Assembly: GCA_016786585.1 (NCBI GenBank)
Contig: JAEUUI010000015.1
Span: 186,001-250,000, forward strand
DNA: 64,000 nucleotides
Direction of reading: 5' to 3'
Origin: Cyclobacteriaceae bacterium
Lineage (GTDB): Bacteria; Bacteroidota; Bacteroidia; Cytophagales; Cyclobacteriaceae
Both the position numbers and the translations under genes were made by a program. The notes under the pieces are model-generated. The model saw nothing but the letters and a program-made list of their open reading frames with translations, searched no databases and was not told where the DNA came from. Shown here in pieces: positions 3,201 to 18,392 of the stretch (positions are counted from its first letter, which is position 1; each line of letters begins with the position of its first letter).

Positions 3201-6200
3201 GCAGTTGACAACCTTTACTGGAGGGTACTCATCTGAACTACGTTCTTTAAATTATTGGAACGGGATAATATTGGCAGCAGACCATTCGGGATTAACAGGA
3301 GACGGAAACACTCCCCTCTACAAGTATTTCGTGAATTCCAATACGTGGGTCCGTAGTGCAAACCTTAAGGGGAAGATTACCAGCAGTGCAGCAATTGACC
3401 CAGTTGGTGAAAAGTATATCGTTTTTCAATCAGTTGGGTCTGGGCCAGGTACGGCCTTTGATGTTCGCAACTTGCGCGAAAATTCGGAAGTACAACGAAC
3501 AAAAACCTTTTCCAGCGAAAGCAGCAGCTTGATATATGTCGACAACCCTGGCTATACTGGTATTTATGCCACTAACGGTAACAAGTTTTACCGATATCAA
3601 ACAGGTGTTCCGTCATCTTCATGGCTGTATACGACACCTGCGCTTGGAGAAATTCCTGCGGGAAGTTCGCAGATAATTCGTGTGAAGGTCGGCTCACCAA
3701 CTCTCGAGCCGGGAATCCATCATGCCGATGTCAAAATTTTAATGTCTAATGGAGCAGTTTTCAATCACATCCCGGTAGCTGTTACGGTAGCAAACGGACC
3801 TCATGGAGTTTTGAATTCAACGAGCGGAACTGTAGAAGAAACTGCTGTCGGCTCTGGTCGAATAAGTTCCCCGCGGCTGCAGAATACCGGTTCTTCCAAT
3901 TTGATTGTAAGCAGCGTGACCATTGATGATCCTAATTTCAGTATAAGTCCGAGTACTTTCTCGGTACCGCCAAGTGAATTTTTGTCATTACCATTCTTAT
4001 TTAAGCCACTGACATCCGGTACATTTACAGGGACTTTTATCTTACACACCAACGATCCCGATAACCCGGATTTTCATTACACACTAACCGGAAAGGGTGT
4101 TCAATCAGCAATTCCCCAAACTTCTCCTTCTTCAATAACTGCAACTATTGCTGCCGGAGATCATGTAACGGAAAATATTCACATAAATAATCCGGGCGAA
4201 AGTTCGTTGTACTTGTCATTGGGGTCAGACTTTCCTTGGATTACCAAGCCAAGTGAAGAATACATTATACAAGGGGGGCAATCTGCTGTTGGAAAAGTGA
4301 TTCTCAATGCGTCCAATAAAACTGCAGGGCAATATCAGGGTGTTGCAAACCTATTTTACTTAGATTTTGCAATAGGTTCATCTTATCTCGAGATTCCGGT
4401 AACGATGAATGTCACAGACGCACCCGGAATCAGGTGCAGCGTGGACAGCGTAGACTTTAAAAGTCGTGTACCAGGAAATACGTACGATAGCACAATTGCA
4501 ATCAGTAACACAGGAAGTTTGCCCCTATCAATCACTGACATAACTTCTACCAATCCGGCATTCAGTATTTCTGCAACATTTCCAATCACCCTTAATCCAG
4601 GGGAAAAGACCGATGCAACGATCACATTTGATACATCTCAGGAGGGCTTTCATGTGGGAACCGTATCAATCCTAAGCAATGATCCAACAGATGCAATTCT
4701 TACGCTCCCAATCAAAGGTTTGTCTATTGCTCAGGGTCAGCTTGTCGCTTCGGTAACACAAATCCACGAATCGGCACTTACCGACCAAAGTAAGTCGCAA
4801 GGATTTCAAGTTTCAAATCTTGGCTCTGATGAAATTTCGTGGCGATTATCGAACGTGGTTGATGATTTTGCTACGTTCACAGCATTGGAAAATACACCAA
4901 ATTTCGCTTTTATAGCTCTTGCAGCAGATTCGCAGACAGGCATGATTTATGGCCAATCTCCACGTCTTCAAAATTTATATCAGTATAATCCGACCACCAA
5001 TGCCTGGGCTATTGCTGCAGGACGCGCACCCGGCATGAATTCTTTTTCAGCCGCAGAAGCAGTGGTATTGAATGGTAAGATGTACTGCTCTTTCGACTCG
5101 GACATTGCTACTATTTATGTATACGATGTTTCTTTAAAAGAATGGACGAGATCACGCAACGTATTTAATAACATGATAACAGCCGCATGTTCAGATGACG
5201 ATGTTATCTATTTTGCAAGTGGAGACGGTGTAAAAATGTTTAACCCATCCCTTTCGTTGTGGACTACATTGCCATCTTCCCCACTTAACAATATCGATAA
5301 TTTGCAGTTCTTTAATGGGAATCTATATGCACATACAGGGCAAACGACAGCATTCGCCCGATACAACGTGGTCAATCATGCCTGGGAAGTCCTGCAAGCT
5401 CCACCAACTCAATTTGGAAGATCTGGTAGCATGAATAGATCTGCAGGTCGTTACTATTCGATTAGCGCTGACGGAAAAAAGCTGTTGGAGTATGATTTAC
5501 GGGTTGATCATTGGGCTGAGTTTGAAATCCCATTGTTTCCTGTTACAAACGGTACGATCGTTTACACCGGATCAAATGATATTTATTTCACGCAGGGTGA
5601 TAATGGAGTCGGGCTTGGCAAATATTCATCACCCGTATCCAATATTGAATGGCTACGTGTATCACCAACATCGGGCACGTTACATGGACTGGCAAGCAAC
5701 ACACTAAAGCTTGAATTTAATTCAGTTGGTCTCAACAGCGGTCGTTATGAAGCAATGATCGACATTCTTTCCAGTGGCAGTCAGGAACCAGCAGTGAAAA
5801 TTCCTGTCACATTCGATGTCACCTATCCCGGACCGGACATCAGTGTACCTCAAGAAATTACCGGTAATCTTGATCGGTTTGCTTCAATTTCGAAAACGCT
5901 CCGAATTGAAAACAAAGGTGGTGGATTATTAACCTGGTCCGTTGATAGTGAACTTCCGGCAGCACTAACGCTCAGCAAATCAACCGGAACAGTTGCGCCA
6001 GGGTCTTTCGAAGAGATTACCGTCCATTACGTGTCTGGTTTTTATTCTCCCCGGATTTTCAGCTATCCCTTGACCTTTAGTTCAGATGATCAGTTTTCGC
6101 CATCCGTGGAAACACAATTATCATTTATCACTCGGGCCGAATTGAATAGCGCGCCTTATCTTAATGGATCACTTGAAGATCAGTCGGTGCAATTCGGAGC

Positions 6201-6711
6201 GCCTCCAATTGAAATTTCAATCGCAGAACTTTTTCTCGACTCTGAGAATGACCCGATAAACTACTCAGTAATATCCTCTAATAGTCAGGTTGCCTCGGTT
6301 GATCTGGAAGGCACTACGCTTAAATTACTTCTATTTAAGACCGGGATATCTAACATAACAATTATCGCATCCGATGATTTGAATGCTTCGGGCATAACGG
6401 AATTCAGTGTTTCGGTTAATGAGTTAGTAACAGGTGTTGAACCGGGTATTTGGGAGAAACGCTTGCGCGCATTCCCGAACCCGTTTAACGAGCAATTCAA
6501 TATTCGATACGATGTATCACAGGCTTCTTACGTAAAAATTCAGGTATTTGACTCCAATGGAAAAATGGTTTTGAACTCTGACCGATATATTGAAGTAACT
6601 GGCGAAAACACGATATCCATTAAAGCAAATCAGCTCAGCCCTGGCATCTATCATTGCAGATTAAATCGGGCAAATGGTGAAACGGCAACTGTACGACTCC
6701 TGAAAAAATAG
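205..6711 (+). CDS. Giant secreted subtilisin-like (S8) protease with kelch-like blocks and type IX sorting tail
   Basis: A 2168-residue secreted endopeptidase. The ATG is followed by a hydrophobic signal segment (about residues 18-38). The S8 triad is complete: Asp209 (VIDGG), His263 (HGTHVAGT) and Ser440 (GTSMACPH), with oxyanion Asn376 (AAGND). Next come a fibronectin-III-like domain (about 506-612), repeated choice-of-anchor-D type beta-sandwich domains (for example about 720-830, 1230-1300 and 1430-1510), and two kelch/beta-propeller-like blocks (about 890-1140 and 1563-1812) with YN..TN.W repeats. A cadherin-like stretch (about 1993-2070) precedes the C-terminal tail (about 2090-2168, FPNPF start, GIYHCRL, final RLLKK) typical of cargo for the type IX secretion system. 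It is probably released to, or anchored on, the cell surface. The substrate is unknown; the propellers may bind carbohydrate or protein. The gene stands alone with its own promoter box. Confidence 0.93.
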   Translation: MSALVEVHCARVARFSPGSFAIAVILTFLPYASALAQADTEKYDIVHIKFKKEFLPASNSSENGKSARSGMTSIDLISEKYDAISIERIFTESPKYEKAHEAYGLNLWYKLKFPKGSDTARAISEYKSLNYFHTVEACKPYVPAWDRAAKAKRAEASSLSSGPNDPQFKYQWHYQNTGQNGGVAGADINVMKAWRIETGSPNVIVAVIDGGVDINHPDLKGALWRNPGEIAGNGIDDDHNGYSDDIHGYGFGDHSSNIFPDPHGTHVAGTIGAISNNGVGVAGVAGGNGKADGVRIMSLATFGQFSTGNFENAMIYAADNGAVISQNSWGGGSTAIEAAIDYFIARAGFDNSNANFPNNIQTGPMAGGIVIFAAGNDNKSEALFGYPGSYPKAIAVASTNNADIKAATSNYGNWVDITAPGDRVLSTLPDSDYGYFSGTSMACPHVSGVAALLISFFQQPGLKPNEIRSRLLMATRPIDVENPDYVGKLGSGRLSAYNAFATRDRVPPATITDLRVIATTSTSIKLQWTAPSESGAKGGQVDKYDIRISKTPINELNFQSAESVEAPAPGTPGQIQTCEANWLSIGSTYYIAIKSTDALYTQSALSNVVSTNTFEVGIFEPSNIDLNLTMPAGRMSTQPVELNHIDVSGLNAEPMDLLLVFEGGPVPVSFPQEHIIINKGATQQIILTFNTKDVAPGEYSGLLRGVHREFCYPLGVSIKLTVTPPIGLGIADDVNIGSLLINQTRDTTVLLHNNNTTALIIQTIQTSDPRITLSATAVTLSPGEDYPLTISITGSEAGVLDATLTLQTNDPEDETVSVKIHGEFFEVPEITISPLSITATLSLAEQKNFDVSLTNTGQSSVSWHTNYPATETPAGLYQFTEKASAPADLTALSFDPVGGFIYGKAMFISNFYRYNSVTNSWSALAPGPTNIFGQAAYLNGKIYHTGQKLEVYTVASNSWSSINYPVAVSCQTITTDGQYLYLAFGKVLYRYDILGNSWLQLTTFTGGYSSELRSLNYWNGIILAADHSGLTGDGNTPLYKYFVNSNTWVRSANLKGKITSSAAIDPVGEKYIVFQSVGSGPGTAFDVRNLRENSEVQRTKTFSSESSSLIYVDNPGYTGIYATNGNKFYRYQTGVPSSSWLYTTPALGEIPAGSSQIIRVKVGSPTLEPGIHHADVKILMSNGAVFNHIPVAVTVANGPHGVLNSTSGTVEETAVGSGRISSPRLQNTGSSNLIVSSVTIDDPNFSISPSTFSVPPSEFLSLPFLFKPLTSGTFTGTFILHTNDPDNPDFHYTLTGKGVQSAIPQTSPSSITATIAAGDHVTENIHINNPGESSLYLSLGSDFPWITKPSEEYIIQGGQSAVGKVILNASNKTAGQYQGVANLFYLDFAIGSSYLEIPVTMNVTDAPGIRCSVDSVDFKSRVPGNTYDSTIAISNTGSLPLSITDITSTNPAFSISATFPITLNPGEKTDATITFDTSQEGFHVGTVSILSNDPTDAILTLPIKGLSIAQGQLVASVTQIHESALTDQSKSQGFQVSNLGSDEISWRLSNVVDDFATFTALENTPNFAFIALAADSQTGMIYGQSPRLQNLYQYNPTTNAWAIAAGRAPGMNSFSAAEAVVLNGKMYCSFDSDIATIYVYDVSLKEWTRSRNVFNNMITAACSDDDVIYFASGDGVKMFNPSLSLWTTLPSSPLNNIDNLQFFNGNLYAHTGQTTAFARYNVVNHAWEVLQAPPTQFGRSGSMNRSAGRYYSISADGKKLLEYDLRVDHWAEFEIPLFPVTNGTIVYTGSNDIYFTQGDNGVGLGKYSSPVSNIEWLRVSPTSGTLHGLASNTLKLEFNSVGLNSGRYEAMIDILSSGSQEPAVKIPVTFDVTYPGPDISVPQEITGNLDRFASISKTLRIENKGGGLLTWSVDSELPAALTLSKSTGTVAPGSFEEITVHYVSGFYSPRIFSYPLTFSSDDQFSPSVETQLSFITRAELNSAPYLNGSLEDQSVQFGAPPIEISIAELFLDSENDPINYSVISSNSQVASVDLEGTTLKLLLFKTGISNITIIASDDLNASGITEFSVSVNELVTGVEPGIWEKRLRAFPNPFNEQFNIRYDVSQASYVKIQVFDSNGKMVLNSDRYIEVTGENTISIKANQLSPGIYHCRLNRANGETATVRLLKK

Positions 6712-6854
6712 GCGTGTCAAAAGCTTTCGTTATAAGACCTAGTCGCAATAGGACCGATTCGTCAGCAAGGTCAAAAAGTCGGTTTTGGGTTTAAAAAACC
6801 AGTTTTCGTTATTGGCTCATTCTTTGTTTTAACAGGGTTATAAACATAATTCTT

Positions 6855-8048
6855 ATGAAAACACTTGGATTGAGAATGGTTGCCGTATTCTTCCTGATAG
6901 CGGGCGGAACGGCAGTACGGGGTCAGGAACGTGACGCGGAAGTTCCGGGTGATTACTTTAGCCTTGAAGGCGCTCTTGAGCTCTTCAAGAAATCGTCTTC
7001 CCCCGAAGAATTTGAACGCATGTTAAATGACGAAGACTCGAAAGTTAACAACCTCGACTTGAATGGTGATGGAGACATCGATTACCTGCGGGTAATTGAT
7101 CGGACCAATAGAAATGTTCACACCTTCACAATTCAGGCTGTTATTTCCGATACTGAACTTCAGGATGTGGCTGTTATTGAGCTCGAAAAGCTGGCTAATG
7201 GCAAAGCTGTATTACAAATAACCGGTGACGCAGACGTATATGGTACCGAAACCATTATTGAACCTACTCAGGAAGTACGTGTCAATGCCGGCACCACCAC
7301 AACGACTACCGTTGTGAATGTGTGGACGTGGCCTGCGGTGCAATACGTATATGATCCATATTACTCTCCCTGGGTTTCACCGTGGGGTTGGTATTCACGC
7401 CCGATCTGGTGGGTAAGCTGGAGACCGGTTGGCTATTACCATTACTATTCCTGGTGGAATCCTTACCGTCCTTACTACACACGTTGCCACACACACCGGG
7501 TTGTATATGCTGATCACATTTATCGCCCGCATCGCAGCACTTCGGTAATTGTAACCAACAGGCATCGCGGTCAGTTAACAGACTATCGCGCTACGCACCG
7601 TGCGGATGTTCGTCACAACCGATATGATAATAATTCGAATCGCAGTCGCAGTGACTACCGATCTGATAACGCAAGGCCAACAGTCAGAACGCGGGATAAT
7701 TCGGATTATGTTAGCACACGACCAACAAGGACAAGAAATGAAAATATGGACAGCCAGACACGCTATGAAGCGCCAACAAACAGACGCTCATCGGATGACT
7801 CCCGGAAACGGACATTTGAGCGACAGGAATCCGGGCGTCAGCAACACGTTGTGACACGCGAACGGAGTAGTGAACGCAGATCATTTGAGAGTAGCAGACA
7901 ATCTCAAAATCGGTCAACCGGAAGCGTAAGTCGTCCGACTCAGCAACGCTCATCCGCACCGGTAATGCGTCAGGAACGCAGCCATAGCAGTGGTGGTGGC
8001 GGAGGATCGAAACCATCTTCTCAAGGTCGGTCGAGACGTTCGAGATAA
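6855..8048 (+). CDS. Secreted protein with EF-hand-like loop and Arg-rich low-complexity tail
   Basis: 397 residues, no family I can name. A signal peptide (about 1-23, ending near VRGQ) is followed by a folded-looking domain (about 30-150). That domain carries a DxNxDxDxD calcium-loop-like motif at residues 68-76. A segment very rich in Trp and Tyr (about 155-212) follows, then a tail (about 215-397) dominated by Arg, Ser, Gln and Asn with a short Gly run near the end. The composition suggests an envelope or matrix protein whose basic tail could contact polyanions such as DNA, LPS or polysaccharide; this is inference. The ATG at 6855 puts the Lys directly before the hydrophobic core. It lies 143 bases after the protease and ends in a strong terminator. 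Confidence 0.8.
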   Translation: MKTLGLRMVAVFFLIAGGTAVRGQERDAEVPGDYFSLEGALELFKKSSSPEEFERMLNDEDSKVNNLDLNGDGDIDYLRVIDRTNRNVHTFTIQAVISDTELQDVAVIELEKLANGKAVLQITGDADVYGTETIIEPTQEVRVNAGTTTTTTVVNVWTWPAVQYVYDPYYSPWVSPWGWYSRPIWWVSWRPVGYYHYYSWWNPYRPYYTRCHTHRVVYADHIYRPHRSTSVIVTNRHRGQLTDYRATHRADVRHNRYDNNSNRSRSDYRSDNARPTVRTRDNSDYVSTRPTRTRNENMDSQTRYEAPTNRRSSDDSRKRTFERQESGRQQHVVTRERSSERRSFESSRQSQNRSTGSVSRPTQQRSSAPVMRQERSHSSGGGGGSKPSSQGRSRRSR

Positions 8049-8050
8049 AG

Positions 8051-8080
8051 AAAAGGAGGGTTCGCCCTCCTTTTTCTTTT
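8051..8080 (+). terminator. Rho-independent terminator
   Basis: The stem aaaaggaggg / ccctcctttt with a ttcg tetraloop runs into a T-rich tract, three bases after the stop of the Arg-rich protein gene. Confidence 0.92.
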
Positions 8081-8189
8081 GAACCCGTTTTCAAAATCTA
8101 AACTCTCCTGCGCAGAAGATGGGCAGGCACGCGATAAAATTCAGCTTATGACAATTTTGCTATCATAATCTGTTTGACCAAACACGCAA

Positions 8190-10790
8190 CTATTGTCCAA
8201 TCGCCTGATTAAATTGCGTTTCATACTGATCCACAATTTCGAGCATTGCTTTGTCATCTTTAAAACGCTCGCGTAACAGCGGATAGATCTCCTTCCCTTT
8301 CGGTTCAGCAAGCGTTTCAATCAACAGCACATTATTAAAGATCACATTTAAGTCTTCTTCCTGAAGTGATTTTTTTAACCGGTCAAATATCAATGGATAT
8401 GCATCAGCACTTCGCTTGAGGCCCGCTATTGTTTGCACTGCAATGACCCGGTAGTCCCAAACGCTTGTACTTGCCTGCGGCAGATTCCATCTGGGCTCAT
8501 TCAGATCGCTGAGCGCCCGATATGCAATATCGTACGCACGCGGATCACCCAACTGCTGCAGGCCATTCAATGCGCTCATAAGACTTTGATTTTTCCATGA
8601 AGGGCGTGTAACAAGTTTTGCCAGCGCAGCATACGCTTTCGGACTTTTAGTGCCTCCCAAAGCAACAGCCGCATTTGCCACCACGCGATCGCTGTTATCG
8701 GCAAGTGCGTTGATGTACACATTTGTATACTTCGGATCTTGTGTTGTTCCGAGGAAAGCAATGGCCGTTGCCTTCACCCATGACTTTTCCTTAGCAATCA
8801 TATTAAGAAGCATCTTCGTGGAAACCGGATCAAGTTTTGCCGGGGTGCCCGGTGTCACCAAGAGGCCACGCAACTGACCAAGCGCACTCATACGCAGTCT
8901 CCAATATGCAGTACTTTGCACAATCTCACGCAAAGCATTCATAAAATCTGTTTTCATAGCTGTCACTGCGAATTCGCTCCTGGCACGGGCTCCGAGTTCA
9001 GTTATAGCCGATCGCCTCGCCAAAATGTCAGAAGAGTTTAGAGCTATGTATAGCAGTTCTTCCGTTGTTTTTTTGAAGATGAGTTCTTTCAGCCAGGTTG
9101 ACTGATAATCGAAGTTGACAAGTTTTGGTTCTTGTGATATTGGAAAACTGAAGACGTTTTCTTCCTGTGCATTCAGCCAGACCGTTTCGATCGCATCATC
9201 AATCTCTATCTCAACTTTGCCCTGAAAAAACTCAGCATGCGGATAAATTCCCAGGGAGTCAGGCTTTTGTTTCTGTGTAACGGTTAGTATTAGTTGTTTT
9301 GATGACTTATCGTACTGTTTTGTTACTTCGAACACCGGATGACCGACACGATATACCCACTGATCAAAAAACCACTCCATCGGATCACCCGTCACTTGTT
9401 CAATTGCTTTACGGAAATCTTCGGTCGTTACCGGCTTATGCGCATTTGTACTGAAATAGGTTTTCAGAATTTGCTTCCATTTTTCATCTCCGACATGTTT
9501 GTGCAACATTCGCATAACGGAGGCACCATAATAATACGGTGCGTTCCCTCCTACACCCGAATAGTTTTTTGTAACGACAGGCTCACATAATCCTGCATTC
9601 CAGTCTGCCAGGTAAATAGCCTGATCGGCCAATGCATGCTGCCAGATTAAAAATTCATCAGTGCCATTCTTGTACATGTTGTACAATCCCGAAAAGTACC
9701 GCGACAAACCTTTGCCAAGCCATTGCTGGCTCCAATCCGCTGGCGTAACGTAACAACCCGTCCATTGCCATGCGAGCGATTCTCCTTCCAAAGGATCCCA
9801 CAGGTAGAGATAGTCGGCATGCGTGTAATAGTCGTCAACCATATTTTCCGACTGGGCCGCTATTCCCATTCCGGCTGCGCCCCATGGTAAATCCTGAACG
9901 AAGACTTGACTATAACTCGCAAAAGGATAATTGACGCCTGTATATTCCGAGAAAAACTTAACCATATCCGGAAGGCGTTCAACGCTTGCAGTAGTTGCTT
10001 CAACTTCATTCGTATAGCTGTAGCTATGCAACGGGATGTTATTATAATCTTGTTTTACATCTGCATACTCACCTACAACGAACGAAGTGTTCTGATTTGC
10101 GTAAGGAACATCTTCCCGAAAGTGAAAGGTAATGGTGCCATCGGCATTACTTTTCCGTTCGAGCAAGCGACCATTGGCTACTGCAGTAAGACTTTTTTCA
10201 ACCGTAAGTTTTATATCGGTTGTACGAAAATCATTTGGATAGTCGTACCCCGGAAACCAATACCGGTTTGATTCAGGCTCGCCAAGCGACCAAATTTGTT
10301 TCTTGCGTTTTGGCTCGACTGGTGTCGGCCAGATGAACCGAAGACCGCCTTTCCCATTACTTCCACCCAGGTTTAGCGGATCAGTTTCATTGATGTGACT
10401 CGTGCGATACGCTATTGTTAGCGTTAACTCTTCGCCAGGCCGATAGATCCTGTCAAGTTTGATTTTTAATGCATCGTCTTTATCACTGCCATCGTACAAA
10501 AAGGTTAATGGTACTTTATTGACTGAAATCGAACTGATCGTCAGCATACCTGCATCAAGTGCGATATCCTGTGTCGCGTCAAGCGGAGCAAGCGTAATGG
10601 CCGTTGTACCAAAAGCCTGGCGCTTCTGCCAGTCGAATTGCAAATCAATCGAAAGATGGCGCACATCAATTTTTCGCGCTCTTGCCCAATGTTCTTCCGG
10701 CAACCGCCTGGCCGTGTCCTGAGCTGAAGAAACGTACGAGACACATACCATCGCGAACAGAGATAAAATGTATTTATTCATGGGTTGCAT
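8190..10790 (-). CDS. M1 aminopeptidase homologue with all zinc ligands replaced (predicted pseudoenzyme), HEAT-like C-terminus
   Basis: 866 residues with a signal peptide (VSSAQ cleavage-like) and full M1 architecture: N-terminal beta domain, gluzincin-like domain, and a helical HEAT-repeat-like C-terminal half (about 600-866). Where active M1 enzymes have HEXXH-X18-E, this protein has Glu337-Ser338-Leu-Ala-Trp341, and Lys360 sits exactly where the third ligand Glu belongs. Flanking residues (QW, VTPADWS, WL.KG) keep the family pattern, so the alignment is unambiguous. The GAMEN exopeptidase motif is also lost (GAAGMG). The frame is open throughout, so this is not obvious decay. It is expected to lack peptidase activity and may bind peptides or act as a scaffold. 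It is last in a - strand operon; its start overlaps the DJ-1-like gene by 17 bases (or 8 if Met4, at 10781, is used). Confidence 0.88.
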   Translation of the reverse strand: MQPMNKYILSLFAMVCVSYVSSAQDTARRLPEEHWARARKIDVRHLSIDLQFDWQKRQAFGTTAITLAPLDATQDIALDAGMLTISSISVNKVPLTFLYDGSDKDDALKIKLDRIYRPGEELTLTIAYRTSHINETDPLNLGGSNGKGGLRFIWPTPVEPKRKKQIWSLGEPESNRYWFPGYDYPNDFRTTDIKLTVEKSLTAVANGRLLERKSNADGTITFHFREDVPYANQNTSFVVGEYADVKQDYNNIPLHSYSYTNEVEATTASVERLPDMVKFFSEYTGVNYPFASYSQVFVQDLPWGAAGMGIAAQSENMVDDYYTHADYLYLWDPLEGESLAWQWTGCYVTPADWSQQWLGKGLSRYFSGLYNMYKNGTDEFLIWQHALADQAIYLADWNAGLCEPVVTKNYSGVGGNAPYYYGASVMRMLHKHVGDEKWKQILKTYFSTNAHKPVTTEDFRKAIEQVTGDPMEWFFDQWVYRVGHPVFEVTKQYDKSSKQLILTVTQKQKPDSLGIYPHAEFFQGKVEIEIDDAIETVWLNAQEENVFSFPISQEPKLVNFDYQSTWLKELIFKKTTEELLYIALNSSDILARRSAITELGARARSEFAVTAMKTDFMNALREIVQSTAYWRLRMSALGQLRGLLVTPGTPAKLDPVSTKMLLNMIAKEKSWVKATAIAFLGTTQDPKYTNVYINALADNSDRVVANAAVALGGTKSPKAYAALAKLVTRPSWKNQSLMSALNGLQQLGDPRAYDIAYRALSDLNEPRWNLPQASTSVWDYRVIAVQTIAGLKRSADAYPLIFDRLKKSLQEEDLNVIFNNVLLIETLAEPKGKEIYPLLRERFKDDKAMLEIVDQYETQFNQAIGQ

Positions 10791-11379
10791 AGTGAGATTG
10801 GTAGTTGTATTCCATGTATTCGGCAGTATTGAATGCTACATCCTCTCCCAGCAGCTGGGCAATAATATAAAATGACAGATCAATGCCGGCAGATATTCCG
10901 CCTGAGGTATAAAGCTTATCTGACGACTGTGTGAACCGTTTGTGCTGCTGAGGAATAGCCGTTGGTGCAATTTCAAGCATGTGTTCATACACATCATTAT
11001 GCGTGCAGAAGCATAAGCCATCCAGCAAGCCAATTTTACCCACCAGTCGCGAAGCTGAACAAATACTTAGTGTTAGCTCAGCCGATTGGTGGATTTGGTT
11101 AATCCAGGATAACAGGCTTACATCATTTAATAACGCTCTTGTCCCCTGTCCACCCGATAAAATCAAAATGTCAATTTCCGGATAATTGTCGATGGCGTAA
11201 TCGGGCTGAACTTTCAAACCGTTTACCGCCGATACCATCCTACCGTCTTTCGAGATGGTGAAGACATTGAACGGTTTCAGACTATTAATTTGAGAGGTTA
11301 CCGAGAACACTTCGAATGGGCCGGCAAAGTCGAGCACCTCGGCATCATCAAAAATGAGGATGCCAACATTTTTTATCAT
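10774..11379 (-). CDS. DJ-1/PfpI family protein, isonitrile hydratase-like
   Basis: 201 residues with the class I glutamine-amidotransferase-like fold of the DJ-1/PfpI superfamily. The nucleophile-elbow cysteine is Cys107 (SICSAS), and Asp17 in LDFAGPFEVF corresponds to the catalytic Asp of isonitrile hydratases. Those enzymes have Thr after the Cys; here it is Ser108. No signal peptide is seen, so it is cytoplasmic. It lies 13 bases downstream of the NIPSNAP-like gene and overlaps the M1 pseudopeptidase start, so it is almost certainly cotranscribed. The reaction could be isonitrile hydration or another thiol-dependent hydrolysis; a purely sensory role is also possible because the operon's first gene has the same fold fused to AraC. 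Confidence 0.85.
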   Translation of the reverse strand: MIKNVGILIFDDAEVLDFAGPFEVFSVTSQINSLKPFNVFTISKDGRMVSAVNGLKVQPDYAIDNYPEIDILILSGGQGTRALLNDVSLLSWINQIHQSAELTLSICSASRLVGKIGLLDGLCFCTHNDVYEHMLEIAPTAIPQQHKRFTQSSDKLYTSGGISAGIDLSFYIIAQLLGEDVAFNTAEYMEYNYQSHYATHE

Positions 11380-11392
11380 ATTGAATAAGGGG

Positions 11393-12175
11393 TTAATGTT
11401 TGAGCGGATAGAGTATCTGAGAATCTGACGACTCCAGAAGCGCTTTCATTTTGTTTTTTACATCGTCCGGTGTCAATACAGCCTGCAGCTTGATGGCTGC
11501 TTCGTAGGCTGCCACATCGCGATAGTGCGTAAGGACAACCAGAAGATTCGGATCCTGATAAACATGCTGTCGTGTATAATCGTTTTCCTGCGTTTCGCAG
11601 ATCAAAAGCGCCAGCACATCTCCGCCAGCTTTCTTTAGAATATCGAGCTGACCGGTAGCCATCACGTTGATCAGTTCTTTTCTTTTTCCCTTCGTCACAT
11701 AATAAGTTGCAACCGTTATGCCGTCAGGCTTTCTCAACGTCCCAAGTTTAATCCCACCGGTCGAATCAACGGATGTACCCCTAACCTGAAGCGGTTTCAG
11801 CAGATGAACATCATAACTATCCATGAGCATGCTGTTACATTCTGCAGCATTTTGTTTCCAGTAGTCGCTGTAGTAAAAATCTTTCATGAACTTGCTTCGT
11901 GATTGCATGGTGGTAAAACCCCTGATCCACAAGTAATGGTCGGTAGCCTGATTCAGGCTGAATGCATTCATCAGATATCCTCCCAACTCAGCCTGCCGGG
12001 GAATAATGATCCTGTCCATATACGATGAAAACTTGTCCCGCATGTTTTCGAGCAGTGTATAATTTCTTAATTCAACGCTTTTTATAACCAGCTCGTCATT
12101 TGATGGAGATTGGCTGAAGGCTGCAAAAGCGACAATGCAGAAAGCGAACACCAGAAAAAAAGATAGGCACTTCAT
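11393..12175 (-). CDS. Secreted NIPSNAP-like protein
   Basis: 260 residues with an N-terminal signal peptide (hydrophobic residues about 5-20, AAFSQ). The body looks like two dimeric alpha/beta-barrel (NIPSNAP-type) modules. The first, about 30-130, has the typical VELRNYTLL opening and a YLWIRGF strand; the second is about 140-240. NIPSNAP proteins have no settled enzymatic role, though the fold resembles small heme-degrading and monooxygenase-like proteins. It lies 10 bases after the GlxA-like regulator and 13 bases before the DJ-1-like gene. An exported NIPSNAP protein beside a DJ-1 protein suggests small-molecule detoxification, but this is inference. Confidence 0.72.
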   Translation of the reverse strand: MKCLSFFLVFAFCIVAFAAFSQSPSNDELVIKSVELRNYTLLENMRDKFSSYMDRIIIPRQAELGGYLMNAFSLNQATDHYLWIRGFTTMQSRSKFMKDFYYSDYWKQNAAECNSMLMDSYDVHLLKPLQVRGTSVDSTGGIKLGTLRKPDGITVATYYVTKGKRKELINVMATGQLDILKKAGGDVLALLICETQENDYTRQHVYQDPNLLVVLTHYRDVAAYEAAIKLQAVLTPDDVKNKMKALLESSDSQILYPLKH

Positions 12176-12185
12176 GCGAACATTT

Positions 12186-13109
12186 TTAAAGTGTTTGTAA
12201 TAGCCGGATCACCTGCCGCTCGCTTTTGAGGCCACACTGTTTGGCCATTTGCTTACGGCTCATATTCGGATCTTTCGAGAACTCTTTGAGCATACTCTTC
12301 CGGACTAGTGTAACATATTCGTTTACGGTAATGCCTGTTTCTTTTTTGAAGGTACGCGTGAGGTTGCGCGGGCTCATGCATGTGGTGTCGGCCAGTTGAC
12401 CGAGCGACACTTTCTGGTGAATGTTTTCCTGCAAATAATCCTGGGCTTTATGAATTCCGGTATGAATGTGATTCCGGTATTTCATGAAAATACTCTGCTG
12501 CGGATCGGAACCTTGTCTTCGCAGGTAAACCACCAGTTCCCGGGCTACCTGAAAGGCCACAGTCTCATTCGTAAGTTTTTCGACCACAGCAAGAGCCAGA
12601 TCGACACCTGCCGTTACACCTGCGCTCGTCATAACTCTGTTTTCCTCTGTGAACAGGATGTCGTCTACAACTTTTGCAGAAGGATATAATTGCTGAAGTT
12701 CTGCGGTGCGTTTCCAGTGGGTTGTACATTTCAGGCCATTTAGAATACCAGCCTCGGCCAGTAGAAAAGCGCCTGTACAGACCGAGCAAATTATCGCGCC
12801 CGATTCGTGAGCTGAACGTATCCATCGCTTCAATTCAAGCTGCGATTTTAGGTCGTGAGAAGTTAAATAACTTACTTCTGCACCCGGAATAAACAGATAA
12901 TCGCCAGGCAAGAAATTCACTCTATCAATATTAATTAAATTATTGATATTCAGATTAATAGATGATTTTATTTCATCCTGAATCGAGCAAAATTCTATTG
13001 AAATTTTCGCCCCGTGCTCCTGCGCTTCCTGAAACACCTGAAGCGGGCCTGCCAAATCGAGCATGTGAACTCTGGGCAAAACAAGGAATACTATCCGGGT
13101 GTTATTCAT
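12186..13109 (-). CDS. GlxA-type transcriptional regulator (DJ-1/PfpI domain + AraC HTH)
   Basis: 307 residues. The N-terminal DJ-1/PfpI-like domain (about 1-185) has the elbow Cys111 in SVCTGAFLLAEAG, and the AraC-type helix-turn-helix region is about 218-305. The first HTH (VSLGQLADTTCMSPRNLTRTF) is well formed. The C-terminus stops at about residue 307 without the usual FGxSPxxYR end, so the second HTH is slightly short compared with the paralogue at 18959. It is first of the four-gene - strand run and probably controls it in response to a small molecule sensed by the DJ-1 domain. Confidence 0.88.
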   Translation of the reverse strand: MNNTRIVFLVLPRVHMLDLAGPLQVFQEAQEHGAKISIEFCSIQDEIKSSINLNINNLINIDRVNFLPGDYLFIPGAEVSYLTSHDLKSQLELKRWIRSAHESGAIICSVCTGAFLLAEAGILNGLKCTTHWKRTAELQQLYPSAKVVDDILFTEENRVMTSAGVTAGVDLALAVVEKLTNETVAFQVARELVVYLRRQGSDPQQSIFMKYRNHIHTGIHKAQDYLQENIHQKVSLGQLADTTCMSPRNLTRTFKKETGITVNEYVTLVRKSMLKEFSKDPNMSRKQMAKQCGLKSERQVIRLLQTL

Positions 13110-13180
13110 AACGATTTCAACGGTAAACCTAGCCTAAAGGTAAACCGGAAACCGGACAACAAAATGACATTTTAAGCCAC

Positions 13181-13209
13181 AAAAAAACCACTCCTTTTCG
13201 GGGAGCGGC
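13181..13209 (-). terminator. Rho-independent terminator of the active M1 peptidase gene
   Basis: Read on the - strand, ccgctcc and ggagtgg form a 7-bp stem (one G-T pair) followed by seven Ts. It lies just after the stop of the M1 gene at 13227, and separates that gene from the GlxA operon. Confidence 0.85.
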
Positions 13210-13226
13210 TTGTAAATTCTGAAGGA

Positions 13227-15224
13227 TTATTGCTTCGGCCAGACGTTATCGGCCGGATTTGAATCCGGGAACCGGCCATGCGGGTCAAGTGTGATCTTTT
13301 TGATTTTACGGTCGCCAAAATTCATCTCTGCCTTGAAGGTCCTGTCGCCATTCATCCATACCGATACCGGCCACGTGACTTCGGCCATGGTGGCATCGAT
13401 CATTTTCGCGTTAGTAACATTCTTAATCGCCGGTCCTTCGGCTTCGAACTCTACCTTCAGCACCACGGGTGACGGCATCTGTCCTGCCTGATGCACGGTA
13501 ACGGTCGTTTTTCCCTTTACGGTCTTCACATCCTGGATAGAACCTTCCACCGATTCAGTTGTCCAGAGCCAGTAATACCAGAACCACTCCAGGTTCTGGC
13601 CGAGTTCATTATCCATAAAGAAGATATAATCCCATGGGGATGGATGCTTGTACGACCATGTTGTGGTGTATTTCTTCATGGCATTAATGACGGCTTCATC
13701 CCCAACAACTCCGCCCAGCATCGAAAGCATCAGCGGAGTTTTTGCATACGTCTGGAATCCATACCCGCTTCCTGCATCGTTGGCACTCCACATCATGGGT
13801 GCCTCATCTTCACTTCCGCTCGTGCGACCATAACTCTGTCCTAACCCATCAAGAGTGTACGGTTTCTTTTCATCATCAGCATCAGAAAGAATATTCATGA
13901 ACTGGTTAAAGCCTTCGTCCATCCAGCCATACCGCGTTTCGTTGTTACCTACGACCATTGGCCACCACTGGTGTGCTGTTTCATGGTCGGCAGCGCCCTG
14001 GTTTGAGTTGATAACCATCGGATATTCCATGCCTGCACTTGGTCCATCCTGCATGGTTAGCTGGGGAAACGGATACGGTGCCCACAAGGCTGAGTAAAAT
14101 TCAAGTGCGTGCCTTGCCACCGGGCCGGCCTTTTCGAAAAACTTTGCGCGATCCGGAAGGTACACCATGTGAATTGGAATGGGACCTTTGCCCGGAATTG
14201 TTGCACGGGTAGCTTTCCAGATAAAGTTATCTGCTGTTGCCCATGCGAAGTCGTTTACTTTATCGGCCACGAAATGCCACGTCAGTTTATCGCCAGCTGC
14301 GGTTGCTTTACCGGCGCCTTTTTCTGATTCGCTGACAATAATTACATCATCATTTGAGTTCAGTACAGTTGAAAGACGTTGCCGTGCTGTCTCGGTCAAC
14401 ACTTCATTCGGATTTTGAAGAACTCCCGTTCCGCTTACAATCCATCCACCAGGAACAGTGATGGAAACATCAAACTTTCCAAAGTTGTTATAGAACTCAG
14501 CCGGCCCGAGGTATGGACTGGTCTCCCATCCGCGGAGATCATCATACTTTGCGATTCTCGGATACCATTGAGTCGGTTGAAAAAGCCTACTTTCAAATCG
14601 CTGCGTCATGCGATGCCCGCGACCATTCTGGCCACCGGGTAATTTGGTATGCCATTCAATCTCCACTTCTACGGTCGAACCTGCCTTTACGGGTTCCAAC
14701 AAATTAACACTCGCTACCGTGCGTGTAAGTCCGGATACGGTAATCTTTGTTGGTGCTGGAGCATTACGGCCCATCGGAGGCGCAGCGGTTAGGTCTACTG
14801 TCTGACCTGCAACTTTAATGCTTGTCAGTACTATACCATCTGTTGCCTCAGCAGGCGTTGATCCACCCCGCATCGCTTCTGCGCGGAAGATGTTGTGATC
14901 AAGCCGGAGTACAATGTTCTTCAGATCGTCCGGGCTATTATTGTGCATGACTATTTTTTCAGAGCCCGTGATCGTTTGGGTTGCTGGATCAAGACTTGCT
15001 TTGATCGTATAGTCGGTTTCGAGTTGCCAATACTTCGGTCCAGGCTTTCCGGAGAAATTCCGTGTACCCGCCTGAAATGCTTTGCGGATCGAGTTGGTCA
15101 TTGGTACATCGGTACGGATAGCTCGCTTTTGCGTGTCGATAGAGGATCGAACCGGCGTGTGCGTAGTCTGCGCGGAAGCCAGTGTTGATAGGATAAGGAG
15201 GATACTTACTAAAAAACGCGTCAT
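13227..15224 (-). CDS. Secreted M1 family metallopeptidase (active-site intact)
   Basis: 665 residues with a signal peptide (LSTLASAQ). The zinc site is complete: His414-Glu415-x-x-His418 in HETAHQW, and Glu437 in MDEGF exactly 18 residues after the second His. The substrate-recognition segment is GMEY rather than GAMEN, a variant common among bacterial M1 proteins annotated simply as M1 metallopeptidases. It probably trims peptides in the periplasm or outside the cell. The gene has its own terminator and a 198-base divergent intergenic region shared with an FtsX-type permease. It serves as an internal reference for the substituted M1 homologue two kilobases away. Confidence 0.92.
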   Translation of the reverse strand: MTRFLVSILLILSTLASAQTTHTPVRSSIDTQKRAIRTDVPMTNSIRKAFQAGTRNFSGKPGPKYWQLETDYTIKASLDPATQTITGSEKIVMHNNSPDDLKNIVLRLDHNIFRAEAMRGGSTPAEATDGIVLTSIKVAGQTVDLTAAPPMGRNAPAPTKITVSGLTRTVASVNLLEPVKAGSTVEVEIEWHTKLPGGQNGRGHRMTQRFESRLFQPTQWYPRIAKYDDLRGWETSPYLGPAEFYNNFGKFDVSITVPGGWIVSGTGVLQNPNEVLTETARQRLSTVLNSNDDVIIVSESEKGAGKATAAGDKLTWHFVADKVNDFAWATADNFIWKATRATIPGKGPIPIHMVYLPDRAKFFEKAGPVARHALEFYSALWAPYPFPQLTMQDGPSAGMEYPMVINSNQGAADHETAHQWWPMVVGNNETRYGWMDEGFNQFMNILSDADDEKKPYTLDGLGQSYGRTSGSEDEAPMMWSANDAGSGYGFQTYAKTPLMLSMLGGVVGDEAVINAMKKYTTTWSYKHPSPWDYIFFMDNELGQNLEWFWYYWLWTTESVEGSIQDVKTVKGKTTVTVHQAGQMPSPVVLKVEFEAEGPAIKNVTNAKMIDATMAEVTWPVSVWMNGDRTFKAEMNFGDRKIKKITLDPHGRFPDSNPADNVWPKQ

Positions 15225-15335
15225 AATTGTGGTGTTTACATTAGTGAAGTGGAAGCTGCCGCAATTCCATTTGCGGACGGTTAAAGATACACCATTCGAA
15301 ATCGAACACAGCCACTTTCAAACGTTTATAACGCT

Positions 15336-15361
15336 GCTCATAATGAGCTCGTTCCGCTCAT
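15336..15361. promoter_or_regulatory. Operator-like palindrome with repeated GCTCAT
   Basis: GCTCAT-A-ATGAGC is a 13-base perfect palindrome (15336-15348), and a third GCTCAT copy follows at 15356-15361. The array sits in the divergent region between the M1 peptidase and the FtsX-type permease, 62-87 bases before the permease ATG, where a regulator could control either gene. No regulator can be assigned. Confidence 0.35.
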
Positions 15362-15422
15362 GTAGAATCAAAATCCAAGTCGCCCATATTTCCGTTTACC
15401 CTGCCTAACCAACCTCAGTTCT

Positions 15423-17834
15423 ATGCTTCGTAACTACCTAACCGTTGCCATCCGCAACGTACTCAAGGACAAGTTCTACTCGCTTATTAATGTTTTCGGG
15501 CTTACGCTCGGAATCGCCAGTTGCATTTTTATAACCATTTATATCCACGATGAACTCAGTTACGATCGGTTCAATGAAAAGGCCGACCGGATTTACCGGA
15601 TAACGGAATTCATCGAAACGGAAGGCTCCGGTGAGCGTTCCTCGAGTGCGCCTTTCCCCACCGGCCCTACACTACAGGAAGATTACAGTAACCTGATTGA
15701 ATCGCAGGTACGCTTTTTTGATTTTCAATCTCCCACCCTGTTAGTCGCCAATCGTGACGACAACGAGAAAGAATTCAACGAACCGAATGTTCTGTTTGTC
15801 GACTCTACGTTCTTCCGGATTTTCGATTATGAGGTTATTAAAGGCAACAAGGAGACCGCGCTGTCTCAGCCCAACTCGGTGTTGCTCACAGAAAGTGCAG
15901 CGAAGCGCTATTTCGGAGATCAGGATCCCATCGGAAAGTTTTTAAGAATTGAAGGCCGCCAGGAATTGATGGTTACCGCTGTGATGCCCGATACGCCACG
16001 CAACGCACATTTTCAATTTGATTTCCTTGTGTCGTTTTCAACGTTACGCAACTTCTTCAATGGTCAATATCCGCAAACGTGGTATTGGAATCCCTGCTGG
16101 ACATATGTATTGTTAAAACCAGGCGTTAATCCATCGGAGCTCTCTCAATATTTCCCTGCATTCATTCAAAAGTATTTCCCTGAATTCATCCGTGCCGAGG
16201 CCCGCATGGAATTACAGCCGTTAACCAAGATTCACCTTAAATCAGATCTGGAGTTTGAACTGGAAGCTAACAGCAGCGAGCAAAACATCTATGTGTTTAC
16301 GGTAATCGGGCTGGTGATTCTTTTCATTGCAAGCATGAACTTCATGAACCTTTCCACTGCGCGGTCAGCCAAGCGGGCGAAAGAAGTTGGATTGCGGAAA
16401 ACACTTGGCGGAGAACGTCCGCAACTGGTATTTCAATTTTTGCTTGAATCGCTCATCATCGTGTTTCTGGCAATTGTATTGGCGATCGGTCTCAGTATAG
16501 CAGGATTGTCATCGTTCAACTCACTGGCTGAGAAATCGATTGGTTACGACATATTCTTTAACTCGGTGATCCTGCTCTTGCTGTTGACCGTATTTATTAT
16601 TGTGGGCATCGGCTCGGGGTTGTATCCGGCATTTGTACTGAGCTCATTCGTTCCGGCAAAGGTTTTGAAAGACAGCCAGGCGAAAGGCGGCCGGGGTGCG
16701 GTGCTCCGCAAGGTACTTGTGGTTGTTCAGTTTTCATTGTCTATCATCATGATCATCAGCACGGTGATTGCCATCAACCAACTTGATTTCCTTCGCAAGA
16801 GTGATACAGGTTTTGATTCTGAACAGGTTGTCTACATCTCGGCCCTGCGAACCCCGATAACCCGGACTTACCCGGCTTTCAAAAAACAACTTGAACAACG
16901 CGAGGACATCGTGAGCATGACGGGTATCCTGGATGTGCTGGGTTCCAAGCATCAGGGCGACAACTTCCGGTTTGAGGGAATGGATAAGTCGAAGCTGTTC
17001 TCCGTGATCTGGATTAACCACGACTTCTTTAAAACATTCGATCTTAAGATGGCGGCCGGTCGCGAATTTGATGAAACAAAAACCACCGATGATACACTGG
17101 CAATTGTTGTTAATGAAGCTCTGGTAAAGCAAATGGGCTGGACTGCGGATAACGCCATCGGAAAGCCGTTTGACTACAATCAATATCATGGTGAGATCGT
17201 GGGCGTTGTCGAGGATTTTAACTTTGTATCCAAGCACAGAACCATTGAGCCGTTGATCCTTCAGCTAAGATCAAATCCTGGGCATTTCAGCTTTTCATTA
17301 AAATATGTTGCGATTAAACTCAACACGCAAGACATAAAAGGGACGCTTGCTGCGATTGAGCAAAAGTGGAAAGAACTCGCACCCGGTCGGCCGTTCGATT
17401 ACTTCTTTCTCGATGACGAACTTGATAAACTTTACAAGGATGAGGAGAAGCTTGGCAAAGTCGCGGGAATTTTCTCGGTGCTGGCCGTTGTTGTAGCCTG
17501 CCTTGGTTTGTTTGCACTCGCCTCGTTCATTGCAGAAGAACGCAAAAAAGAAATCGGTATCCGGAAAGTGATGGGAGGTTCAGTAGGCCAGATTGTTCTT
17601 CTGCTGTCAACCGATTTCTCAAAGCTGATTGCCATTGCATTCATTATCTCCTGCCCGATTGCCTGGTATGCCGTTAACAAATGGCTGAATGGCTTTGCGT
17701 TTAGGATCGATATCCATTGGGGGATATTCGCACTTGTCGGGCTGGTAACATTCGCGATTGCGTTGCTCACCACAAGTTACCGGGCGTTGCAAGCCGCGTT
17801 CTCAAATCCAATCAAGACGCTGCGGCACGAGTAA
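15423..17834 (+). CDS. FtsX/MacB-type ABC transporter permease (two-module)
   Basis: 803 residues of the long Bacteroidota permease type: TM1 (about 20-42), a MacB-like periplasmic domain, an FtsX three-helix module (about 280-425), a further TM helix and second periplasmic domain, then a C-terminal FtsX module (about 675-795). Conserved family features include LTLGIASCIF at the N-terminus, FMNLSTARSAKRAKEVGLRK before the third helix, and ERKKEIGIRKVMG near the end. Such proteins pair with a LolD/MacB-type ATPase in mechanotransmission or export, but no ATPase gene is adjacent. It may be involved in stress response or lipoprotein or peptide export. The ATG at 15423 opens directly with the typical MLRNYLTVAIRN. 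Confidence 0.92.
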   Translation: MLRNYLTVAIRNVLKDKFYSLINVFGLTLGIASCIFITIYIHDELSYDRFNEKADRIYRITEFIETEGSGERSSSAPFPTGPTLQEDYSNLIESQVRFFDFQSPTLLVANRDDNEKEFNEPNVLFVDSTFFRIFDYEVIKGNKETALSQPNSVLLTESAAKRYFGDQDPIGKFLRIEGRQELMVTAVMPDTPRNAHFQFDFLVSFSTLRNFFNGQYPQTWYWNPCWTYVLLKPGVNPSELSQYFPAFIQKYFPEFIRAEARMELQPLTKIHLKSDLEFELEANSSEQNIYVFTVIGLVILFIASMNFMNLSTARSAKRAKEVGLRKTLGGERPQLVFQFLLESLIIVFLAIVLAIGLSIAGLSSFNSLAEKSIGYDIFFNSVILLLLLTVFIIVGIGSGLYPAFVLSSFVPAKVLKDSQAKGGRGAVLRKVLVVVQFSLSIIMIISTVIAINQLDFLRKSDTGFDSEQVVYISALRTPITRTYPAFKKQLEQREDIVSMTGILDVLGSKHQGDNFRFEGMDKSKLFSVIWINHDFFKTFDLKMAAGREFDETKTTDDTLAIVVNEALVKQMGWTADNAIGKPFDYNQYHGEIVGVVEDFNFVSKHRTIEPLILQLRSNPGHFSFSLKYVAIKLNTQDIKGTLAAIEQKWKELAPGRPFDYFFLDDELDKLYKDEEKLGKVAGIFSVLAVVVACLGLFALASFIAEERKKEIGIRKVMGGSVGQIVLLLSTDFSKLIAIAFIISCPIAWYAVNKWLNGFAFRIDIHWGIFALVGLVTFAIALLTTSYRALQAAFSNPIKTLRHE

Positions 17835-17850
17835 CGAAATGAATAAACGG

Positions 17851-17880
17851 ACTGCCGGTAAGAAACACTTCTCCGGCAGT
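17851..17880. terminator. Bidirectional terminator hairpin
   Basis: actgccgg and ccggcagt form an 8-bp stem with a 14-base loop between the convergent permease (+) and SRPBCC (-) genes. The + side continues ttgattt. Its T-tract is modest. Confidence 0.6.
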
Positions 17881-17885
17881 TTGAT

Positions 17886-18392
17886 TTATTTGTTGGGCAA
17901 GCCCCACTTTTCAACTAACTCAGCATTCAGTCCGCCTTCGGAAGCATTTGGCTTACCAATTCCTGTTGTGATGAGTTCTCTCAGGCTCCCCTGAATGTAA
18001 CTGGTCCACGCGTCCTGACAAACGTTGTAACATTCGTATTCCGGCACAAGGCCTTCATGGGTAAAGGTCACCACGGTGTTAACGCCATCGGAAGAGATAT
18101 CAAAAATCAGTTTTGTGTTGATCCACTCCGTGGGATCATTTGTAAAATTGAATTGATTATCCACTACCAGATAAACCAGTCGAATACCGGGATTCCTTTC
18201 AATCAGTCTGATTCGACATAGATGAACATCTTTATAATGGTAAAAGAACGTTTCATTGAGTTTGTCAGTGGGTCCGTCAATTTCTTGCGACCACCAGCCC
18301 CGGAAATTCATTATTGCATTAAAAACCGTGGCTGCACCCTGCTGCACGGTAAAACTTGTAGTATAGTCTTTCATCGCGATGCTGGTTGTCAT
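17886..18392 (-). CDS. SRPBCC (START/AHSA1-like) domain protein, second of a tandem pair
   Basis: 168 residues when started at the ATG at 18392, which overlaps the stop of the preceding gene as ATGA and implies translational coupling. An internal Met (18374, MKDY) is the alternative. The sequence follows the AHSA1-like SRPBCC pattern: AATVFNAIMNFRGWWS helix, several beta strands, VTFTHEGLVPEYECY, and a C-terminal helix. These helix-grip folds bind hydrophobic ligands; no catalytic residues are known for this group. It is clearly related to the upstream gene (VFNAI, WWS, TFTH.GL.PE.ECY all shared), with an extra C-terminal extension (about 140-168). Its ligand is unknown. Confidence 0.85.
   Translation of the reverse strand: MTTSIAMKDYTTSFTVQQGAATVFNAIMNFRGWWSQEIDGPTDKLNETFFYHYKDVHLCRIRLIERNPGIRLVYLVVDNQFNFTNDPTEWINTKLIFDISSDGVNTVVTFTHEGLVPEYECYNVCQDAWTSYIQGSLRELITTGIGKPNASEGGLNAELVEKWGLPNK

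Follow-up and report, generated by a model that had tools for sequence, protein, structure and literature searches.

Can an M1 aminopeptidase that has lost the ligands of its zinc still be maintained by selection, and if so, for what? We address this question for a gene on the minus strand at 8190-10790 of a 64,000-nucleotide stretch from a Cyclobacteriaceae bacterium (contig JAEUUI010000015.1, positions 186,001 to 250,000; the whole stretch is called the window). Its open reading frame and translation specify an 866-amino-acid, exported-looking homologue of M1 aminopeptidases with a HEAT tail, and its Pfam matches and its place in a clade of 16 members mark it as an M1-aminopeptidase-like pseudopeptidase. 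An earlier note on this DNA, made from the letters alone, had claimed that in the 866-residue frame the HEXXH-X18-E signature of active M1 enzymes has become E337-S338-x-x-W341-X18-K360 and that the GAMEN motif is gone, and our alignment bears this out. We believe that the protein is a selected, non-enzymatic M1-HEAT scaffold from an old clade of exported-looking pseudopeptidases, a reading to which we give a probability of roughly 60%; that it is not a zinc aminopeptidase is, judging from the site alone, highly probable.

The site alignment held 99 proteins, namely the 16 clade members and 83 other M1 relatives, and was drawn from the returned loci and by a score threshold, so that it represents part of the matches of the searches. 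All five catalytic residues (H, E, H, E and Y) are present in each of the 83 relatives outside the clade, whereas the window protein carries E337, S338, W341, K360 and Y419 in these columns. The former HEXXH reads E337 S338 L A W341 (9768-9782, minus strand, as are all features below unless marked otherwise), the former third zinc ligand, a glutamate, is now K360 (9711-9713), and the GAMEN stretch is replaced by DLPWGAAGMGIAAQ. The statement in the earlier note that every catalytic residue had been replaced therefore holds for the zinc ligands and the glutamate but not for the catalytic tyrosine, which is kept as Y419 (9534-9536) and is found in 5 of the 16 clade members as compared with 83 of 83 intact relatives. 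Across the clade, no row has histidine in the first histidine column (E7, Q6, N3), glutamate in the first glutamate column (A10, S4, T1, G1) or glutamate in the column of the third ligand (K7, N6, R3), and the G(A/G)MEN exopeptidase motif is absent from all 16. The second histidine column varies freely (N5, S4, H3, W1, A1, Q1, G1), with histidine kept in three members. A random spectrum of substitutions, which the note had taken as a sign of decay, is thus seen in this column, unlike those of the first and third ligands, which are restricted. Moreover, residues 337 and 360 covary (E with K or R in 7/7, Q with N in 6/6, N with K in 3/3), in pairings that amount to just two or three independent events on the site-masked tree described below, and these matched pairs may tie two helices together in the metal's stead. 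The residue numbers used here may be 3 too high, given that the probable true start is the second ATG, Met4 at 10781, near which the homologues at L010 and L011 also start.

The loss is common to the clade. Its first seven members (alignment A1) were picked by overall similarity, and when profiles were run against 390 genomes from the order and 395 from the phylum, a gap separated clade members, at 1000-1544 bits, from the next protein at 460.6. Because the clade profile includes the site columns and the members from which it was built, the tree was calculated with the site columns masked. In this tree of 61 rows (the 16 clade members and 45 of the 83 others after thinning), a quick search with no bootstrap, the 16 lie on one side of a branch with a support of 100 in the Shimodaira-Hasegawa-like approximate likelihood ratio test (SH-aLRT). 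The zinc ligands and the general base have been lost clade-wide, most simply by one event. A private mutation or a sequencing fault is ruled out by the 15 other members, which also lack the site; none of them has an intact HEXXH. Fifteen of the 16 genes have an open full-length frame, that of G162 running off its contig end. For the match G543:C70:68338-70827 one TAA was counted inside the match, yet its 845-residue frame (L133:8691-11228) is open.

Purifying selection on the pseudopeptidase continues. By the Nei-Gojobori method, the ratio of nonsynonymous to synonymous divergence (dN/dS) is 0.148 at dS 0.62 for the pair L099/L100 and 0.127 at dS 0.67 for L097/L098, the two unsaturated pairs, and 0.070 at dS 1.59 for L010/L011; pairs with the window gene itself are saturated. 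These values lie far below 1 and, together with the clade-wide loss and the open frames, they support the preference of the earlier note for a selected non-enzymatic role over decay.

What selection guards has changed as well. Pfam identifies a Peptidase_M1_N domain at residues 45-229 (10104-10658; PF17900, 2.3e-17, 64.1 bits against a curated cut-off of 25.8) and a Peptidase_M1 catalytic-type domain at residues 271-478 (9357-9980; PF01433, 1.1e-20, 74.7 bits against 27.7), which according to the site columns is devoid of zinc ligands. C-terminal to these, as in the bacterial M1-HEAT architecture, lies a HEAT-repeat region at residues 576-866 (8193-9065), with a HEAT_2 match at 660-732 (4.4e-14, 53 bits against a cut-off of 27.7) and helical repeats in an AlphaFold model. 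We compared domains at matched divergence, defined as pairs with an M1_N identity of 0.4-0.5 in separate pairwise alignments. The alignments covered the complete set of 120 clade pairs and a random sample of 300 pairs from the other proteins, and pairs are not independent. Identity in the catalytic domain was 0.465 in the clade (81 pairs) versus 0.547 in the others (23 pairs), while in the HEAT region it was 0.429 versus 0.267 for the same pairs. The joint alignment agrees (catalytic 0.471 versus 0.546, HEAT 0.433 versus 0.239; 96 clade and 768 other pairs). In the clade, constraint has shifted off the catalytic domain and onto the HEAT region, and the tail, which is loose in enzymes, is nearly as conserved as the remainder of the protein. 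A relative in genome G318 carries this further: a 476-residue open frame (L176:8800-10230, minus strand) in which the catalytic domain is missing in frame and M1_N is joined to HEAT. It aligns to residues 37-233 and 672-864 of the window protein at 40-41% identity, adjoins a DinB-like gene and a DJ-1/PfpI-AraC regulator, and retains those parts that selection favours.

To place the protein among solved structures, we used an AlphaFold model from 71 input rows (mean predicted local distance difference test score, pLDDT, 91.4; predicted template modelling score 0.90), 55 of which are intact relatives that may bias it in favour of the enzyme fold; an earlier model from 7 rows was weak (pLDDT 65.9) and was not used. 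Structure comparison indicates a complete M1 fold over residues 31-866 of the model, with PepN of Francisella as the best whole-chain match (Z 37.9, root-mean-square deviation 3.5 over 658 residues). PepN, puromycin-sensitive aminopeptidase (PSA) and IRAP are active zinc enzymes and in this differ from the window protein, which has no zinc ligands. Intact bacterial M1-HEAT proteins share its domain order (M1_N, M1, HEAT) in the joint alignment, for example G000:C16:121063-123213, the best-scoring other match in the window genome, at 29% identity and with an intact site. They differ in having HEXXH, the third glutamate and the tyrosine in 83 of 83 cases and mostly a GAMEN- or GGMEN-like motif, in their poorly conserved HEAT region, and in lacking a DJ-1/PfpI gene nearby in 18 control loci. 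The window genome also holds two short M1 proteins (532 and 554 residues) in tandem at G000:C24:65862-69073 (L002, L003), and neighbouring pairs of short M1 proteins occur in G002 and G011 as well.

Another solved relative, TAF2, is like the pseudopeptidase in combining an M1 fold with the absence of zinc ligands. It ranks first by Foldseek (7edx_B, E 1.6e-36), nearly tied with IRAP, rank 2 being an active enzyme at 1.8e-36, and superimposes on the model with Z 26.7 and a deviation of 2.9 Å over 579 residues at 22% identity. It is also the best solved relative of the clade profile (146.1 bits versus 134.8 for PSA), and the site columns of human TAF2 (Q-S-L-A-Q and K) are close to those of the clade (E/Q/N-S/A-L-A-x and K/N/R). 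The site residues of yeast Taf2 are different, and TAF2 differs further in being nuclear, eukaryotic and longer. In the parts of the sources available to us, TAF2 is described as a subunit of a large complex, TFIID (PMC6220335), where it forms a complex with TAF8 and TAF10 (PMC6220335, PMC4309443). Its high score with the clade profile is partly expected, since a second dead protein incurs no penalty from a profile that lacks HEXXH. With two intact relatives as queries TAF2 is not among the best 60 matches, and with a mixed profile of clade and intact relatives it falls below PSA (229.7 versus 259.1 bits). In trees with only the site columns masked, TAF2 groups with the clade (SH-aLRT 100 and 99), inside it in free trees, but the likelihood improves further when the clade is constrained to exclude TAF2, and placing TAF2 with PSA and IRAP is not rejected in the approximately unbiased (AU) test (p-AU 0.466). 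Without the pocket stretches (238 columns), the free tree sets the clade apart (SH-aLRT 99) with TAF2 outside it, and both placements are allowed (p 0.776 and 0.835). We take convergence as the default reading of the resemblance. That TAF2 and the bacterial clade share a common dead ancestor, so that TFIID would have recruited an already non-enzymatic bacterial scaffold, is a reading of low probability; if it were true, TAF2's loss of catalysis would predate eukaryotes.

A second eukaryotic parallel is yeast Tma108, for which the available part of the source proposes a non-enzymatic use of the M1 fold, as we do here for the window protein (PMC11266112). As described there, Tma108 acts on nascent chains and has its active-site residues intact, apart from one that serves substrate binding (PMC11266112). 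The window protein differs in having no zinc ligands and in looking exported. M1-family proteins with non-enzymatic roles are known from eukaryotes, and in the literature searched, with subscription papers mostly outside its scope, we found nothing that describes a family of M1 pseudopeptidases from bacteria. The bacterial clade combines a single ancient loss, a measured shift of constraint, a relative that has dispensed with the catalytic domain and a linked regulator, and offers a tractable model for the passage from peptidase to scaffold. It also serves as a warning that M1 matches above the Pfam cut-offs include proteins that should cut nothing.

The regulator is found directly at the locus. 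In the window, the pseudopeptidase gene is the last in a same-strand run that comprises a DJ-1/PfpI-AraC regulator (FtrA/GbdR-like; 12186-13109), a NIPSNAP-domain protein (11393-12175; Pfam 4e-06), a single-domain DJ-1/PfpI protein (10774-11379; Pfam 4.2e-15) and the pseudopeptidase, whose start the DJ-1/PfpI gene overlaps. The NIPSNAP gene is separated from its neighbours by gaps of 10 and 13 bases, and the NIPSNAP and DJ-1/PfpI genes keep their place and order in L010 and L011. The regulator has a DJ-1/PfpI domain followed by an AraC helix-turn-helix domain according to Pfam, matches NCBIfam PRK09393 at 4.9e-50, which is below the cut-off, and in the regulator tree is akin to those beside the gene in other clade members. 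In neighbour genes obtained by calling open reading frames, with AraC fusion judged by length and alignment and Pfam run on two, a DJ-1/PfpI gene lies on the same strand within three genes in 13 of the 16 loci (directly upstream in 10); for the AraC-fused form, a same-strand position at most three genes upstream is seen in 11. The five loci without a nearby fused regulator include L012 and G169, both near contig ends; G169 has the orthologous regulator at the edge of another contig, the contig of G680 ends 3.3 kb upstream of the pseudopeptidase, and in G114 and the genome of L014 a related regulator is located elsewhere. Nine carrier genomes were checked and contain 2-7 DJ-1/PfpI genes each. 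The 18 control loci, which span 252 kb, yielded no such gene; 17 of them hold an intact M1 frame (the eighteenth, L031, is a 39-residue match).

Genome-wide co-occurrence gives the same picture. In the 390-genome sample, the regulator profile A3 scores above 480 bits in all six carriers and in one of the 384 other genomes (Fisher 1.5e-12), and above 450 bits in 2 of 384 (6e-12), with thresholds set after the scores had been seen and a test that treats genomes as independent. Profile A3 is circular in that it holds the regulators of G000, G037 and G167, three of the six carriers. A recheck with a profile from five out-of-sample carriers placed the six carriers, G318 and G333 at 445-520 bits and the next at 376, among the best 30 regulator loci; G318, with the trimmed form, is one of the two non-carriers that have the regulator. 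The pseudopeptidase gene is linked to one DJ-1/PfpI-AraC regulator, which probably controls it.

Since selection guards the HEAT region more than it does in enzymes, the most likely function is that of an extracytoplasmic scaffold or binding platform. A signal-peptide-like N-terminus, judged by eye, is present in the window protein and in most of the clade, and the protein would be sent to the periplasm or the surface, where it would bind no zinc in the usual place and cut no peptides. Its HEAT and N-terminal beta domains might hold a partner protein or ligand, a role that could be likened to that of the M1 domain of TAF2 as a structural subunit. Expression would answer a small-molecule signal read by the cytosolic regulator. 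Some regulators of the DJ-1/PfpI-AraC type sense small amino-acid-like compounds, and the module may therefore answer such a compound; as this regulator is below equivalog cut-offs, its matches predict no particular sensed molecule.

Several observations weigh against the scaffold reading. The clade has a patchy distribution, with carriers numbering 6 among 390 genomes of the order and 3 among 17 of the genus (the window genome, G002 and G011), which makes the gene dispensable. In the pair L099/L100 the pseudopeptidase has a higher dN/dS than nine of ten neighbour genes, which range from 0.035 to 0.214, placing it among the faster genes although far from neutral. Of 13 stretches compared across the clade, the one at residues 296-345, which surrounds the former site, has the highest conservation (mean identity 0.62), higher than a mere spacer would need, and the invariant D319, H324 and R151 could serve other chemistry. 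Of the 36 genomes in its genus, one has the trimmed form, which could have arisen by recent deletion or by accident, or reflect a faulty assembly. Moreover, G333 has the regulator and a DinB-like gene with no pseudopeptidase in the 15 kb seen, and neighbours of cytosolic type (the regulator, GNAT and DinB-like proteins) leave the task of an exported protein unexplained.

Some of these points would suit a peptide catcher, in which the old cleft is kept for binding peptides or a chain end without cutting, as proposed for Tma108. The conservation of residues 296-345, the tyrosine kept in 5 of 16 members and the invariant N316, D319 and H324, which sit between the former GAMEN and HEXXH stretches, are consistent with this idea. 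It is nevertheless unlikely. The glutamate of GAMEN holds the peptide N-terminus in active enzymes, and it is lost here; in addition, the catalytic domain, taken as a whole and at matched divergence, is less conserved than its counterpart in intact relatives, and the relative in G318 does without it. The roles that the earlier note had offered were peptide binding, inhibition and scaffolding, and on these the evidence leans towards the HEAT and N-terminal parts and away from the old pocket.

We consider it improbable that the protein is instead a pseudo-subunit or inhibitor that regulates an active peptidase, whether an M1 protein with its site intact or a DUF4932 protein bearing HEYIH or HEVIH. 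A candidate partner is encoded at 13227-15224 (Pfam 7.8e-10), four genes upstream in the three loci of the window genus, with members of the same cluster in L010 and L011. The earlier note had called it an active paralogue; its HEXXH-X18-E is indeed intact, but it is a distant M1 homologue that sits in another part of the M1 tree (L009). It was dropped as an informative paralogue, the 29% M1-HEAT paralogue on contig C16 being closer, and we regard it as a neighbour and at most a candidate member of the pseudopeptidase system. Among the other 13 loci, a gene of this M1 cluster was seen in L126 only, three genes upstream. Genes of the DUF4932 cluster with HEXXH-type motifs occur in 3 of the 16 loci, but DUF4932 is present in just 4 of the 15 carrier genomes searched, plus G318 and G333 (6 of 17 in all). 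The DUF4932-cluster proteins themselves, at L125:5505-6587, L126:13760-14875 and L130:1553-2737 (Pfam run on the L126 one), carry HEYIH or HEVIH and are possible zincins.

Hardly probable, too, is an enzyme with a new active or metal site. Four residues that are invariant in all 16 clade members are rare among the 83 intact relatives (D319 and R151 in none, H324 in 4, N316 in 7), which speaks for such a site; against it, no known catalytic motif was recognised in the clade sequences, and constraint has moved to HEAT. A decaying gene, to which the freely varying second histidine column and the dN/dS above nine of ten neighbours in L099/L100 might point, is highly improbable in view of a loss common to the clade and mapped to one change on the tree, the open frames and dN/dS values of 0.07-0.15.

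The scaffold gene has further neighbours that, with the regulator, bring to light a small conserved gene module including an undescribed protein family. In some loci the genes downstream encode a DinB_2 protein (7 of 16), a GNAT acetyltransferase (4 of 16) or, at position +1, a member of what we call cluster 3 (6 of 16), a family of about 155 residues (alignment A4, 7 rows, 41 invariant columns) with members at L134:11137-11601, L125:8377-8841, L126:11334-11789, L127:11131-11601, L132:8238-8711, L178:6242-6715 and L130:4773-5276. The one member tested has no Pfam match at E up to 0.01 and no NCBIfam match, and the family's profile against the PDB gave nothing below E 0.5. In the 390-genome sample, cluster 3 is present in four of the six carriers and, at lower scores, in two of the 384 other genomes; profile A4 is circular, as it contains the four sample members found, and was rechecked with a profile from out-of-sample carriers. 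In the genome of L014 the regulator, cluster 3 and the DinB gene lie together, apart from the pseudopeptidase gene. The window genus has the NIPSNAP and DJ-1 proteins instead, and a profile search of the window's genome found no cluster 3.

Signals around the run are faint. Terminator-like stems of 10 pairs and a T run are seen after the pseudopeptidase gene (8051-8074) and in the gap that separates the regulator from the distant intact M1 gene (13185-13211); both come from a pattern scan and are weak, because the region holds 10 such sites versus 7.5 expected. An Rfam search of 5000-18000 gave nothing at gathering scores, and a promoter scan, with 5 matches versus 11.6 expected in shuffles, was not used. 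Finally, directly after the pseudopeptidase gene of L012 lies a gene (L012:3492-4289) for an exported-looking DJ-1/PfpI protein with a heavy-metal-binding domain (HMBD). The plus strand of the window encodes, near the cluster, another DJ-1/PfpI-AraC-type protein, which belongs to a different subfamily (18959-19942), and, at 205-6711, a 2168-residue subtilase-like protein with the motif GTSMACPHVSG, identified by eye.

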